A DNA stretch of 64,000 nt. Source: Bacillus salipaludis. GTDB taxonomy: Bacteria > Bacillota > Bacilli > Bacillales_B > DSM-18226. The DNA lies in the NCBI RefSeq assembly GCF_004358205.1, contig NZ_SMYO01000010.1:1-64000 (forward strand), in the 5' to 3' direction. Positions 7,000 through 30,462 of this stretch are shown here, piece after piece. The notes below the pieces were generated by a model that was not told the DNA's origin, ran no database searches, and saw nothing but the letters and a program-made list of their open reading frames with translations. Each line of letters begins with the position of its first letter. The first letter of the stretch is position 1. The translations under genes were made by a program, and so were the position numbers.

Positions 7000-7107
7000 C
7001 CGTTCTGCTTGATTTTAGGATTGATTTTATAAGGGAAACTGGCTTGATCCCCAAACCCCTTATGGTTTGTGGTTTCAGTCGCTTCGACCCCCAATTGGCT
7101 ACCCCTT

Positions 7108-7367
7108 GGTTTTATTGCCCGTTCCAGCTGGTTCACCTATTAAAGGGAAAAGGAACTCTGGTTCATTGCCCGTTCCGGCTGGTTTCACCCGAAAGAGGGA
7201 AAAGGAACTTTGGTTCATTGCCCTTCCGTGCTGGTTTCACCCGAAAAAGGGAAAAGGAACTCTGGTTCATTGCCCGTTCCGGCTGGTTTCACCCGAAAAA
7301 GGGAAAAGGAACTTTGGTTCATTGCCCTTCAGTGCTGGTTTCACCCGAAAAAGGGAAAAGAAACCTT
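7108..7367. repeat. tandem array of five 52-bp units (array 1)
   Basis: Five head-to-tail units of exactly 52 bp begin at 7108, 7160, 7212, 7264 and 7316. Each starts GGTTCATTGCCC and ends AAAAGGGAAAAGGAAC plus two or three bases. Two subtypes alternate: units 2 and 4 carry CCCGTTCCGGCT, units 3 and 5 carry CCCTTCCGTGCT, so a 104-bp dimer was probably duplicated. Unit 1 is diverged and unit 5 is degraded at its end. The unit ends are inverted repeats (GTTC/GAAC), so hairpins can form within a unit and across junctions. All three plus-strand frames stay open merely because the repeat lacks stops. The array fills the ABC/gsaB divergent intergenic region (6938-7519). Confidence 0.93.
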
Positions 7368-7519
7368 CTTTCGGTTGCACAGCCCCCCATTGGCAACCGA
7401 ACCCCCAATGCTGTTTCATTTTAATCACAAATCCGCCAATGCAATGATCAAAAAAATAGCAGGAAAACACTAAAATAAGTGCTAAAATAAGAAAGAATCG
7501 AATTTCAGGAGGAAATATT

Positions 7520-16704: not shown

Positions 16705-17235
16705 CTAGCGTCGATATGTTAAATAACGTTCGTACCAAATATCAATGAAGTCTGGCGCAAAAGGACCTTTTCGCTGACGAATCCAGCGAATGAGCTTATC
16801 TACGTTTTTCTTCAGAATTTGGTCGATTACTTCAGGGTATTTCATCTCTCGGCGATGGCGCTCATATTCATCTTCATCTAATAAATTGAATGTCATATCA
16901 GGATACACCTTTATATCCAAATCATAATCAATATATTTCAGCGCTTCCCCGTCAAAAATAAACGGAGAACTTAAGTTACAATAATAATAAATCCCGTCTT
17001 CCCGAATCATTCCAATCACATTGAACCAGCATTGGGAGTGAAAGTAACAAATAGCCGGTTCCCTAGTAATCCATGTTCTTCCATCTGATTCTGTTACAAT
17101 CGTCCGATCATTTCCGCCAATCACTAAATTTTGCGATCCTTTTAAAACGGTTGTTTCTTCCCAGACCCGATGGATGTGCCCATTGTGTTTATAGCTATGT
17201 ATTTGTACTGGTTCTCCTTCGATGGGTACGCCCAT
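16705..17235 (-). CDS. ygaC: nucleoside tri-/diphosphate phosphatase, DUF402 (YgaC)
   Basis: A 176-residue DUF402 protein closely resembling B. subtilis YgaC, with the strongly conserved [13 protein letters not shown] core and the acidic ligands in [13 protein letters not shown]. The family contains metal-dependent nucleoside tri- and diphosphate phosphatases (Ntdp of Staphylococcus aureus). The ATG at 17235 is chosen because AGGGGAG is correctly spaced. It lies 88 bp upstream of ygaD on the same strand and may be cotranscribed with it. Confidence 0.88.
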
Positions 17236-17365
17236 ATTCTCCCCTACCTTCATTCCTGAACGCTTTGTAACCTATTCGAAAAAATTTTTAAATACCGGTA
17301 AATGGCAACAAAGTACAATTCCTCTTTTATATTATTATAACGGTTGAACAAGGATTTTAAAACAA

Positions 17366-17433: not shown

Positions 17434-17691
17434 CTACCTTGAAGGGGTTAAGTTTGTTACTTGATAGGACTGGATGACTTCTTCTGTTTGTTTTTCAAAT
17501 ATTAATTGAATCTCTTTTAATTCCTTTTTCATTTGTTGAATATCAGTCTGAATACTCTCAAGCTCCGTTTCATTTTGCAGATTTTGCAATTCTGCTTCAA
17601 TCTCAAGACAGCGTTCCAGCTCGGCTTGAAGGTATAATAATTTTTCCATTGTGATCATTTGTTCGGAAACTAATCGGTTAAATTGATCCAT
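17434..17691 (-). CDS. ygaB: YgaB-like coiled-coil protein
   Basis: An 85-residue, highly acidic, almost entirely helical protein with heptad-like leucines through residues 10-70, matching YgaB by position between ygaC and sspE. The start at 17691 (MDQFNRL) has GAGG 3-5 bases before it and GGTGAGG slightly upstream. A GTG 9 bases upstream is an alternative. Function is unknown. Confidence 0.72.
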   Translation of the reverse strand: MDQFNRLVSEQMITMEKLLYLQAELERCLEIEAELQNLQNETELESIQTDIQQMKKELKEIQLIFEKQTEEVIQSYQVTNLTPSR

Positions 17692-17841
17692 TTCCCTCAC
17701 CGCCTTATATTTTGTACTTTATAAATATTCTTGAACAAATCCATTTATCCTTTGACTATTTATGTAAACTTTATGGAACATTTGTCGAATTTGAGAAGAT
17801 GTTTCTAAAAGGGACTTATTTGATCTATTTTACGATTACCT

Positions 17842-18852
17842 GATGAAGACCATATCCCACAACTTCTCCCTTCGTTTTGGCCTTCATCTACGTGATGAGG
17901 ACCATATCTCCCGACTTCCGCTTCGTTTTGGCCTTCCTGTACATGATGAAGACCATACCTTCAAGCTTCCCACTTCGTTTTGGCCTTCATGTACGTGATG
18001 AAGACCATATCCCCCGGCTTCTCGCTTCGTTTTGGTCTTCATGTACATGATGAAGACCATTTCTCTCAGCTTTTCGCTTCGTTTTGTCCCTCATGTACGT
18101 GATGAAGACCATATCTCGCGGCTTTTTGCTTCGTTTTGGCTTTCATGTACGTGATGAAAACCAAATCTCGCGGCTTCTTGCTTAGTTTTGTCCTTCATGT
18201 GCGAGATGAAGACCATATCTTCCAGCTTCCCGCTTCGTTTTGTCCTTCATGTATGTGATGAAGACCATATCTTCCAGCTTCTCGCTTAGTTTTGTCCTTC
18301 ATGTATTTGATGAAGACCATTTCTCTCAGCTTTTCGCTTAGTTTTGTCCCTCATGTACTTGATGAAAACCAAATCTCGCGGCTTCTTGCTTCGTTTTGGC
18401 TTTCATGTACGTGATGAAGACCATTTCTCTCAGCTTTTCGCTTAGTTTTGTCCCGCATGTACGTGATGAAAACCAAATCTCGCGGCTTCTTGCTTCGTTT
18501 TGGCTTTCATGTACGTGATGAAAACCAAATCTCGCTGCTTCTTGCTTAGTTTTATCCTTCATGTGCGAGATGAAGACCATATCTTGCAGCTTCCCGCTTC
18601 GTTTTGTCCTTCATGTATGTGATGAAGACCATATCTTCAAGCTTCTCGCTTCGTTTTTGCCTTCATGTACGTGATGAAGACCATTTCTCCTGGCTTCCGC
18701 TTAGTTTTGTCCTTCATGTACGTAATGAAGACCCTATCTCCCGGCTTCCGCTTAGTTTTGGTCTTCATGTACATGATGAAGACCATATCTTCCAGCTTCC
18801 CGCTTCGTTTTGGTCTTCCTGTACATGATGAAGACCATATCCCCCAGCTTCC
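17842..18852. repeat. tandem array of nineteen 52-bp palindromic units (array 2)
   Basis: Nineteen complete units plus a partial one run head to tail. Starts include 17842, 17894, 17945, 17997, 18049, 18101, 18153, 18205, 18257, 18309, 18361, 18413, 18465, 18517, 18569, 18621, 18673, 18724, 18775 and 18827. Sixteen are exactly 52 bp and three are 51 bp, each missing one base in the same CTTCCCGCTT run. Units begin GATGAAGACCA and end TTGGYCTTCATGTACRT; these arms are complementary, perfectly so in unit 4, so each unit and each junction can fold. Subfamilies repeat in blocks (units 10-11 resemble 12-13). The array separates ygaB from sspE, neighbours in B. subtilis. No protein is likely. Confidence 0.95.
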
Positions 18853-18872: not shown

Positions 18873-18903
18873 GAAGGCACTCTTCCGATTGAGAGCGCCT
18901 TCC
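18873..18903 (-). terminator. terminator of sspE
   Basis: On the minus strand AAGGCGCTCT and AGAGTGCCTT form a stem around CAATCGGA, then a T-rich tail. It follows the sspE stop codon by about 18 bp. Confidence 0.82.
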
Positions 18904-18920: not shown

Positions 18921-19253
18921 TTAGCTTTGACCAAATTGGCCAGAACCCTGGTTTTTACGAGCTTCTGCAGCTTGGTTTTGCTTTCTAACCTCTGCAGCAT
19001 TTGTTTCGCTACCGAATTCTGTACCAAATGCTCCAGCTGCACCTGCTGCACCTGCTGCACCTGCACCAGCATTAGCACGAGCTGATTGAGCATTTTGTTG
19101 TCTTACTTCTTGAGCATTTGTTTCACTCGCAAATTCAGTTCCAAATGATCCTGCAGCACCTGCACCTGCTTGAGATTGTGCATTTTGTTGTCTTACTTCC
19201 TGGATGTTAGTTCCAGCAGATGTTCTGTTAGCTTGTTGGTTGAATTTTGCCAA
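18921..19253 (-). CDS. sspE: gamma-type small acid-soluble spore protein (SspE)
   Basis: A 110-residue Gln/Asn/Ala/Gly-rich protein with two copies of the gamma-SASP repeat, each holding a germination-protease site of the TEF(A/G)SET type (about residues 39-45 and 79-85). Gamma SASPs store amino acids in the spore core and are degraded at germination. The second linker is expanded to AGAGAAGAAGAAG. Translation starts at TTG, with GGAGG 9 bases upstream. The fabL neighbour matches B. subtilis. Confidence 0.92.
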   Translation of the reverse strand: MAKFNQQANRTSAGTNIQEVRQQNAQSQAGAGAAGSFGTEFASETNAQEVRQQNAQSARANAGAGAAGAAGAAGAFGTEFGSETNAAEVRKQNQAAEARKNQGSGQFGQS

Positions 19254-26127: not shown

Positions 26128-26285
26128 TGTGGATAATGTGGATAATGTGGATTCAGCGTAAAAACCTCTTAAAATACAAGCTATAAAGCTTTTCACATTT
26201 TGTTAACAAATTTTGTGGGTAACCCTGTGGATAATGTGCATAAGTTTGTGGAATGCTTATAATATAGGACCTTTGATGTGGATAG
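26128..26285 (+). other. cluster of DnaA-box-like 9-mers
   Basis: Eight TGTGGATAA-like 9-mers lie in one orientation within 158 bp. Perfect matches are at 26128, 26137 and 26226; near matches are at 26214 (TGTGGGTAA), 26235 (TGTGCATAA, allowed in the TTATNCACA consensus) and 26277 (TGTGGATAG); weaker ones are at 26146 and 26247. The first three abut without gaps and those at 26226 and 26235 also abut. The region has no gene and is AT-rich. It is a candidate DnaA-binding cluster outside oriC. Confidence 0.7.
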
Positions 26286-30350: not shown

Positions 30351-30462
30351 CTCTTATCTTTCAGGTTAAACATAACCTGCAGGAATTAGCACCTTTTCAA
30401 GGATTACCTTGAAGGTTGCCGGGCTTCATCGGGCCTAGTCCCTCCGCCGCTCTGGATAAGAG
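30351..30462 (-). promoter_or_regulatory. SAM-I (S-box) riboswitch aptamer
   Basis: On the minus strand the aptamer shows P1 strands CTCTTATC / GATAAGAG, the conserved AGAGCGGCGGAGGGACT, GCCCGATGAAGCCCGGCAACC, the variable P3 hairpin (CCTTCAAGG / CCTTGAAAAGG) and GGTGCTAATTCC. All are diagnostic of the S box. High SAM should favour the downstream terminator and stop hom transcription. Confidence 0.97.

Follow-up and report, generated by a model that had tools for sequence, protein, structure and literature searches.

The repeat array lying between a gamma-type small acid-soluble spore protein (SASP) gene and ygaB is one member of a large class found in related spore formers, the arrays of which seem not to encode protein. 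Computation across this class reveals a 52-bp spacing, a 27-bp dyad whose arms covary, an A-T rhythm locked to that dyad and a leading-strand polarity of the spacer, and it also reveals an enrichment between convergent genes as well as shifts in copy number and the replacement of one family by another among relatives. The clade-wide extent of the class, its many arm sequences and an orientation that follows replication all go beyond the earlier note on this DNA. Our preferred reading, held tentatively and at somewhat less than even confidence, is that such an array may be an element of double-stranded DNA, namely a helically phased platform of dyads for a putative wrapping or topology protein, with a preferred direction relative to replication.

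The focal array and its class

The focal array was analyzed within a stretch of 64,000 nucleotides from Bacillus salipaludis, hereafter the window. Cut at the repeated ATGA(A/G)(G/A)ACC, it resolves into 16 units of 52 bp and 3 of 51 bp, followed by a partial unit (Table 1). Tandem Repeats Finder (TRF) places it at 17837-18851 with a period of 52, 19.6 copies, 83% matches and a score of 1246, and its nineteen 27-bp dyads follow one another in steps of 52 bp (15 times) and 51 bp (3 times), such that the earlier description of a phased 19-unit palindromic array is confirmed. Within the focal dyads, pairing lies between 0.79 and 1.00 for spans 9-19, drops to 0.16 at span 21, recovers to 0.53 at span 23 and reaches 0.89-0.95 for spans 25-27; the dip at spans 21 and 23 marks the focal dyad as imperfect. 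The two genes that flank the array are, we presume, also neighbours in B. subtilis.

Table 1 Positions of the arrays and neighbouring features in the window.
Feature	Position	Strand	Remarks
Second period-52 array	7107..7401 (TRF 7114-7401)		sequence unlike focal array; dyad score 7/10; weak spacer polarity
ntdP	16705..17253	minus	next after ygaB; anchor for orthologous loci; family model
ygaB	17434..17700	minus	focal array on its 5' side; family model
Focal array	17842..18852	minus	19 units (51-52 bp) and a 26-bp piece; spacer rich in purines (0.76) on minus
Nineteen 27-bp dyads	17878..18837		typical form on minus TGGTCTTCAT-N7-ATGAAGGCCA; first 17878-17904, last 18811-18837
Partial unit, 26 bp	18827..18852	minus	SASP-side end of focal array
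Terminator-like hairpin of gamma-SASP gene	18873..18903	minus	between gene and array; by eye
Gamma-type SASP gene	18921..19253	minus	focal array on its 3' side; family model

Comparison of ntdP places the window nearest to Bacillus sp. UNC438CL73TsuS30 and Neobacillus records. At the focal site itself, the 19 units of the window compare with about 30 bp of one unit in the nearest named relative (L007), and the array is absent in L008. In a further locus (L045, 8805-9551) the SASP-ygaB interval is occupied by a different repeat with the word AAACGGCACATAAAA. Elsewhere, the window opens at the edge of a 16S rRNA gene (1-80), carries a SAM riboswitch (30351-30462) and, on the minus strand at 26128-26285, holds three exact and three one-mismatch copies of TTATCCACA, which we take to be the DnaA-box consensus, within 160 bp; with up to one mismatch this word occurs 21 times in the whole window, which equals the chance expectation.

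The earlier note proposed looking for a second locus, and the window supplies one in another period-52 array of different sequence (Table 1), besides many loci in relatives. An ntdP-anchored sample comprised 80 loci from named relatives; at least one array is present in 33 of the 80 by a lag criterion. Loci L001, L002, L005 and L006 were omitted from most counts as duplicates. When these loci were pooled with the window and six loci of genome G001, TRF returned 41 rows at period 52, 8 at 51 and one each at 50 and 53, with further rows near 104 and 156. Autocorrelation gave 7272 windows at lag 52, 1186 at lag 51, 170 at lag 53 and 137 at lag 50, and 3.2 Mb of unselected DNA gave 19474 at lag 52, 931 at lag 51 and 2434 at lag 53. 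Unit sequences are mostly unrelated between arrays that share period 52, and the statement that length is far better conserved than sequence, made for the focal array, thus extends to the class.

The first 400 kb of contig C1 of G001 contain six arrays with periods of 51-53 and several arm types, and a single genome of the group, G244, harbors many arm families, for example TGTCCGATAGA, TGTCCGTCAT, TGTCCGAAG, TGTCTATAAAA, GGGTACG and GGGCACATA. We found 83 arrays in 1.74 Mb of G244, and array DNA makes up 1.94% of that sample, which combines contiguous runs (0.20-0.62, 1.40-1.62 and 3.60-4.22 Mb) with pieces picked in most cases for their closeness to arrays already known, irrespective of polarity (0.92-1.38 and 3.06-3.48 Mb). 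Beyond these samples, a tandem geometry with outer TGTCC and at most two mismatches was found in 58 of 248 genomes of the order, representing 30 of 105 genera, with up to 417 matches per genome and at most 3 for a reversed control. A sample of the phylum matched in 2 of 299 genomes, one being G001 itself and the other giving one single two-mismatch match. Both scans covered the TGTCC type only, and a genome without that type is therefore not equal to a genome without arrays. A viral or plasmid origin was rejected, as two array patterns gave no exact match in viral contigs and the focal array gave no match in plasmids.

Searches of a body of literature that leaves out most subscription journals brought up no description of such arrays. 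Similarity-based annotation misses them as one class, and some coincide with assembly gaps. Two arrays of G001:C1, near 64.5 and 234.9 kb, lie beside what appear to be runs of N, and runs of N also occur inside or beside the arrays at L056 (8665-9563) and L309 (G086).

Spacing, dyad and helical rhythm

How strictly is the spacing kept? Dyads of the TGTCC type were collected from unselected DNA with no spacing rule, and 141 of 155 close pairs were 52 bp apart, the others being separated by 51 bp (7 pairs), 53 bp (6) and 42 bp (1); a further 21 neighbours within 110 bp lie 101-106 bp apart. Spacers unlike any neighbour gave spacings of 52 bp three times, 51 bp twice and 42 bp once in the unselected DNA, a sample of only six pairs, and 34 of 38 stood at 52 bp in a set that was partly selected for 52 and in which many spacers had no neighbour to compare. 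In locus L152, two arm families of opposite polarity succeed one another in phase, 105 bp apart.

A typical unit consists of one dyad, 27 bp across its outside with arms of ~10 bp around a 7-bp centre, and a 25-bp remainder. Across the 38 arrays of 45 that have odd centres, pairing is 0.49-0.68 at spans 21 to 27 and 0.25 at span 29, the dyads having been picked on spans 9-19 only. Among 63 non-redundant units, odd-centre dyads score at least 6 of 10 pairs in 62 units (46% of shuffles) and at least 8 of 10 in 45 (0.9% of shuffles), and even centres pair at chance; many of these units stem from loci obtained by matching TGTCC patterns (as were all of L107-L136 and the majority of L137-L169), and because units share ancestry within and between arrays the shuffles overstate their independence. 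One 27-bp frame fits the arms TGTCCTTCAT, TGTCTAATAGA, TGTCCTCATGA, TGTCCGAAT, GGGCTTATAGA and GGTCACT.

Covariation was assessed on 136 distinct 27-mers selected in tandem for exact outer TGTCC and GGACA, with the interior ignored. Positions 6-10 pair at 0.77, 0.87, 0.97, 0.85 and 0.56, compared with 0.44, 0.41, 0.35, 0.44 and 0.32 after shuffling, and positions 11-13 pair at chance; it is this boundary that defines arms of ~10 bp and a 7-bp centre. The 42 non-redundant units of G244 behave likewise, with arm pairing of 0.64-0.95 at positions 1-10 and of 0.33, 0.24 and 0.12 at positions 11-13. The earlier proposal that compensating changes keep the stem is thereby borne out, although by other arrays: the pair said to be restored in units 11 and 13 of the focal array is weak evidence, as its author had allowed, and the covariation is seen in other arrays. 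Arms differ wholesale between arrays while their complementarity persists. At one site that is probably orthologous, given a neighbouring gene of 225-226 codons, one of four units in L043 reads TGTAC/GTACA, with both arms changed relative to TGTCC/GGACA in L016 and L024; the remaining three units of L043 are mixed. Mismatches within the arms of G244 are skewed toward purines on the leading strand (A-A 257 versus T-T 32; G-G 99 versus C-C 54).

An odd-centred dyad of fixed 27-bp size resembles the CIRCE site of HrcA, which is built 9-9-9 over 27 bp, and one hypothesis is that the arrays bind one or several sequence-specific dimeric regulators with a geometry of that kind. The outer TGTCC/GGACA, which recurs in 30 genera, would fit such sites. 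However, many arm families coexist in the one genome G244, and the arrays favour the 3' sides of genes over promoters, and for these reasons we regard dedicated regulator sites as quite improbable.

The A-T content of the units carries a rhythm of its own. In the 63 units, the fifth harmonic, at 10.4 bp, holds 0.100 of the power compared with 0.039 in shuffles (2.6-fold, z 12.3), and the remaining harmonics listed hold at most 0.045; the 42 non-redundant units of G244 give 0.107 (z 11.3), and in the focal array this harmonic is the strongest of 12. The rhythm is locked in phase to the dyad centre, with R of 0.93 in 39 units of the TGTC type and 0.55 in 23 others; the value for random genomic 52-mers is 0.045. 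At 10.4 bp per turn, 52 bp corresponds to five helical turns.

Orientation, genomic place and turnover

Units run head to tail, and the 25-bp spacer is purine-rich on one strand in most arrays, with a single polarity per array; in L152, a switch of polarity accompanies the switch of arm family. Contig C1 of G244 opens with dnaA, dnaN, recF, gyrB and gyrA, as read from translations; seven samples taken as far as 2.5 Mb have a positive GC skew, and the one at 3.0 Mb has a negative skew. Against this reference, 65 of 81 scored arrays have their purine-rich strand as the leading one, 10 show the reverse and 6 are undecided (binomial p 5e-11, with arrays treated as independent). In other intergenic DNA of G244, the purine fraction of the leading strand averages 0.521 (sd 0.052, n 947). 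Leading-strand polarity prevails by 29 to 6 where the flanking genes run with the fork, by 10 to 0 where both run head-on, by 21 to 1 between convergent genes and by 5 to 3 between divergent ones.

Two other genomes were read among the arrays listed, which are of the TGTCC type. In G104, agreement with GC skew holds for three listed arrays before 1.6 Mb and for four beyond 2.9 Mb, and a further listed array, at 2.34 Mb, falls between skew samples at 2.1 and 2.5 Mb. In G119, whose sequence starts inside dnaA as judged from a peptide word, 11 arrays are listed between 0.5 and 1.7 Mb, of which 10 agree with replication and one is neutral. For the window, 7 of 8 bins have a negative GC skew, which makes the minus strand probably the leading one, and the focal spacer is purine-rich on that strand. 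Taking the ntdP loci together with the window, the purine-rich strand is the ntdP strand in 24 arrays, the other strand in 4 and undecided in 8; ntdP lies on the leading strand in G244. When the leading strand was approximated by gene lengths in 20-kb loci, polarity was split 13 to 13, and this proxy was replaced by chromosomes of known origin or skew. In the same 20-kb loci, strong-polarity arrays between co-directional genes ran 14 with the genes and 6 against.

These results bear directly on a second hypothesis, also raised in the earlier note, that the arrays are transcribed into strings of RNA hairpins, for example in 3' untranslated regions. Stems of ~10 pairs with 7-nt loops would suit such hairpins, many arrays begin close behind a gene (a median of 79 bp in the 20-kb loci, compared with 244 bp to a facing gene start), and the leading strand of G244 shows a mild excess of G-T over A-C mismatches (191 to 142). 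However, G-U and A-C are equal on the purine-rich strand (152 to 142; 25 arrays versus 29), the arrays of G244 divide 32 one way and 29 the other, the focal array is preceded by a terminator-like hairpin, and polarity tracks replication even where genes run opposite. Rfam gave no match on an array in six sources at gathering scores and none on the focal region up to E 1. Since G-U pairs are not generally favoured and orientation follows replication against the genes, a role at the transcript level is unlikely; with no general G-U excess and no Rfam match, structured RNA was rejected and we consider it very improbable. Orientation tied to replication sets this class apart from transcript-level repeats, and the other idea of the earlier note, a DNA-level role in chromosome architecture or replication, emerges as the better of the two on the strength of dyad, A-T rhythm and polarity, with binding itself putative.

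The arrays also occupy a preferred place. Flanking genes in G244 are convergent at 25 arrays and divergent at 9, compared with a background of 154 and 232 (odds 4.2, p 2e-4, relative to simple gene calls). Arrays were masked before gene calling, such that their position between genes is partly by construction; in an unmasked check, 7 of the 83 G244 arrays were more than half covered by an open reading frame of at least 100 aa.

Turnover is rapid. Within one genus, an orthologous gene-end site was compared between 21 genomes; it is readable in 19, and 15 of the 19 carry an array, of at least five arm types. The TGTCCGTTAGA type occurs with 11 units in G244, 5 in G548, 9 in G555 and 4 in G195; the TGTCCGTCAT type in G553, G545, G086 and G559; a GGGTACC type of period 53 in G550 and G549; and a GGG-ACATA type in G547 and G558, the latter cut by a contig end. 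Three other arrays are found in G116 and G551, which are alike, and in G554. The array is absent in G556, G546, G144 and G221, and contig ends cut the site in G557, where a remnant is seen, and G552. At a second orthologous site, read in G244 and 15 congeners, one array family is present in G244, G548, G557 and G556, a single unit or remnants (by eye) in G553, G559, G551, G116 and G555, and no array trace in 7 of the 16 genomes, which indicates that no single array is essential. The ends of 49 G244 arrays tend toward dyad centres, and the natural unit would accordingly be half a dyad, a spacer and half a dyad.

In loci L137-L144 of G135, two to four array units lie within a dispersed repeat of ~670 bp whose copies are 75-98% alike where matched, and one flank of this repeat looks like the end of a transposase gene. 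The gene-end intervals of L079, L046 and L320 hold another dispersed repeat, with words such as CGCTTCCGCTTTTC and GCTTGTCGGG or its complement.

Rapid change of copy number between relatives, whole units set head to tail and array ends near dyad centres are what a neutral minisatellite would produce if slippage and duplication spread a chance unit, template switching repaired its palindrome and slippage favoured one orientation. This explanation is improbable in our view. One period of 52 with the same 27-bp dyad and the same A-T rhythm recurs in mostly unrelated units, for which a plain neutral minisatellite is insufficient, and one arm family gives way to another without loss of phase (L152); spacings between units whose spacers are unlike their neighbours also center on 52, in the small unselected sample as in the partly selected one. 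The earlier note would have read drifting arms, variable unit length and a lack of other loci as neutral; the arms covary, the unit length is nearly invariant and other loci are many.

What remains after RNA and minisatellite is an element that acts at the level of DNA, and the main rival to a wrapping platform, or its partner, is spread through single-stranded DNA. According to this hypothesis, the arrays are mobile or selfish repeats that move or grow via single-stranded DNA and need no host function; hairpins on the lagging-strand template, copied or inserted there by an enzyme, would fix the orientation relative to the fork. The covarying arms agree with such hairpins, as does the spacer, whose purine-rich strand has leading-strand sequence and is the lagging-strand template. 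Gain, loss and family replacement among congeners, copies within the dispersed G135 repeat and the enrichment on gene 3' sides are likewise in its favour. On the other hand, a helical A-T rhythm would be unexpected, focal units fold weakly as single-stranded DNA (z -0.9 to -1.8), and single dyads are not enriched, with 13 single and 104 tandem compared with 1-13 single and 0 tandem for four control cores. PF01797, which also covers IS200-type enzymes, was found in 26 of 29 array-rich genomes and in 21 of 30 'array-free' ones, the latter lacking the TGTCC type only, and it is absent from the array-rich G086 (312 tandem matches), G221 and G135. Dependence on a RAYT enzyme was rejected for that reason, as no Y1 (RAYT/IS200) transposase gene serves these three genomes. 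Overall, we judge purely mobile repeats to be unlikely, though a serious contender.

We therefore return to the preferred reading, a wrapping platform. Dyads would recur every five helical turns and A-T-rich stretches every 10.4 bp, with the arrays located mainly at the 3' sides of genes. The geometry may be kept because a putative dimeric protein, recognizing structure instead of letters, binds to one face of the array and wraps or supercoils the DNA. Gyrase would be the leading candidate, as on BIME-2 of E. coli, and a nucleoid protein such as one related to Lrp or HU an alternative. The elements themselves may spread as extragenic repeats, with one orientation relative to the fork predominating at entry or in survival. 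Against this platform, the arms covary as in a hairpin, although simple wrapping would not require it, and among the 81 scored G244 arrays polarity is unclear in 6 and wrong in 10.

More broadly, and with a caution that grows with the scope of the claim, many Bacillales genomes could possess a chromosome system coded by geometry, in which letters are free while spacing, pairing, rhythm and fork direction are kept for a putative structure-specific reader. If so, dyads phased at 52 bp, numbering up to hundreds in a genome, would serve as polar platforms for wrapping or tracking in replication or segregation. Conservation of geometry without conservation of sequence is unusual.

Comparison with known systems

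AIMS, KOPS and the SpoIIIE recognition sequence are short, dispersed, purine-rich words oriented with replication. The present arrays share the purine richness and the orientation but are palindromic arrays rather than dispersed words; among 68 unit consensuses of G244, the SpoIIIE octamer is found in just one, AGCGG in 3 and its complement in 2.

BOX elements are built from sequence-conserved modules of about 45 bp, and to our knowledge they have no replication polarity. Like the present arrays, the BOX elements of Streptococcus pneumoniae (PMC3049150) are intergenic and modular with tandem hairpin modules. CRISPR arrays also contain palindromic repeats at regular spacing, but here the spacer repeats with the unit and it is the palindrome that varies. 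Minisatellites and VNTR loci have head-to-tail units of variable copy number in common with the arrays, and differ in that the latter keep one period, dyad and rhythm in mostly unrelated units.

We know of no counterpart among gyrase sites to the replication polarity seen here. The accessible part of the source on E. coli gyrase describes a symmetric motif of about 130 bp with a GC rhythm of 10.75 bp, and BIME-2 elements as gyrase sites independent of transcription (PMC6379681). Dyad symmetry, an A-T/G-C rhythm of ~10.5 bp and a sequence that is not strict are thus common to that motif and the arrays, whereas the motif described there is single, 130 bp long and of 10.75-bp rhythm, and the arrays consist of 52-bp tandem units with a rhythm of 10.4 bp (PMC6379681).

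Extragenic imperfect palindromes in high copy number, which are a criterion for REP/BIME elements, are what G244 contains, with its 83 arrays in 1.74 Mb. BIMEs are located on the 3' sides of genes, as are the present arrays. REP/BIME-2 of E. coli, as far as the accessible parts of the sources extend, further share extragenic palindromes in regularly spaced groups at high copy number (PMC6379681, PMC2817692) and a helical GC rhythm comparable to that of the gyrase motif (PMC6379681). The present arrays differ in several respects: units run head to tail in a single orientation and not as alternating palindromes; many arm families exist per genome, without shared sequence; and the 52-bp step is fixed, with orientation tied to replication and no dependence on a Y1 transposase. 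Lacking the shared sequence, the alternating orientation and the RAYT association of REP/BIME elements, the arrays are not members of that family, yet by analogy they would work like BIME-2. As naturally occurring phased DNA, they also offer testable material on how spacing and direction might be sensed on the Firmicute chromosome.
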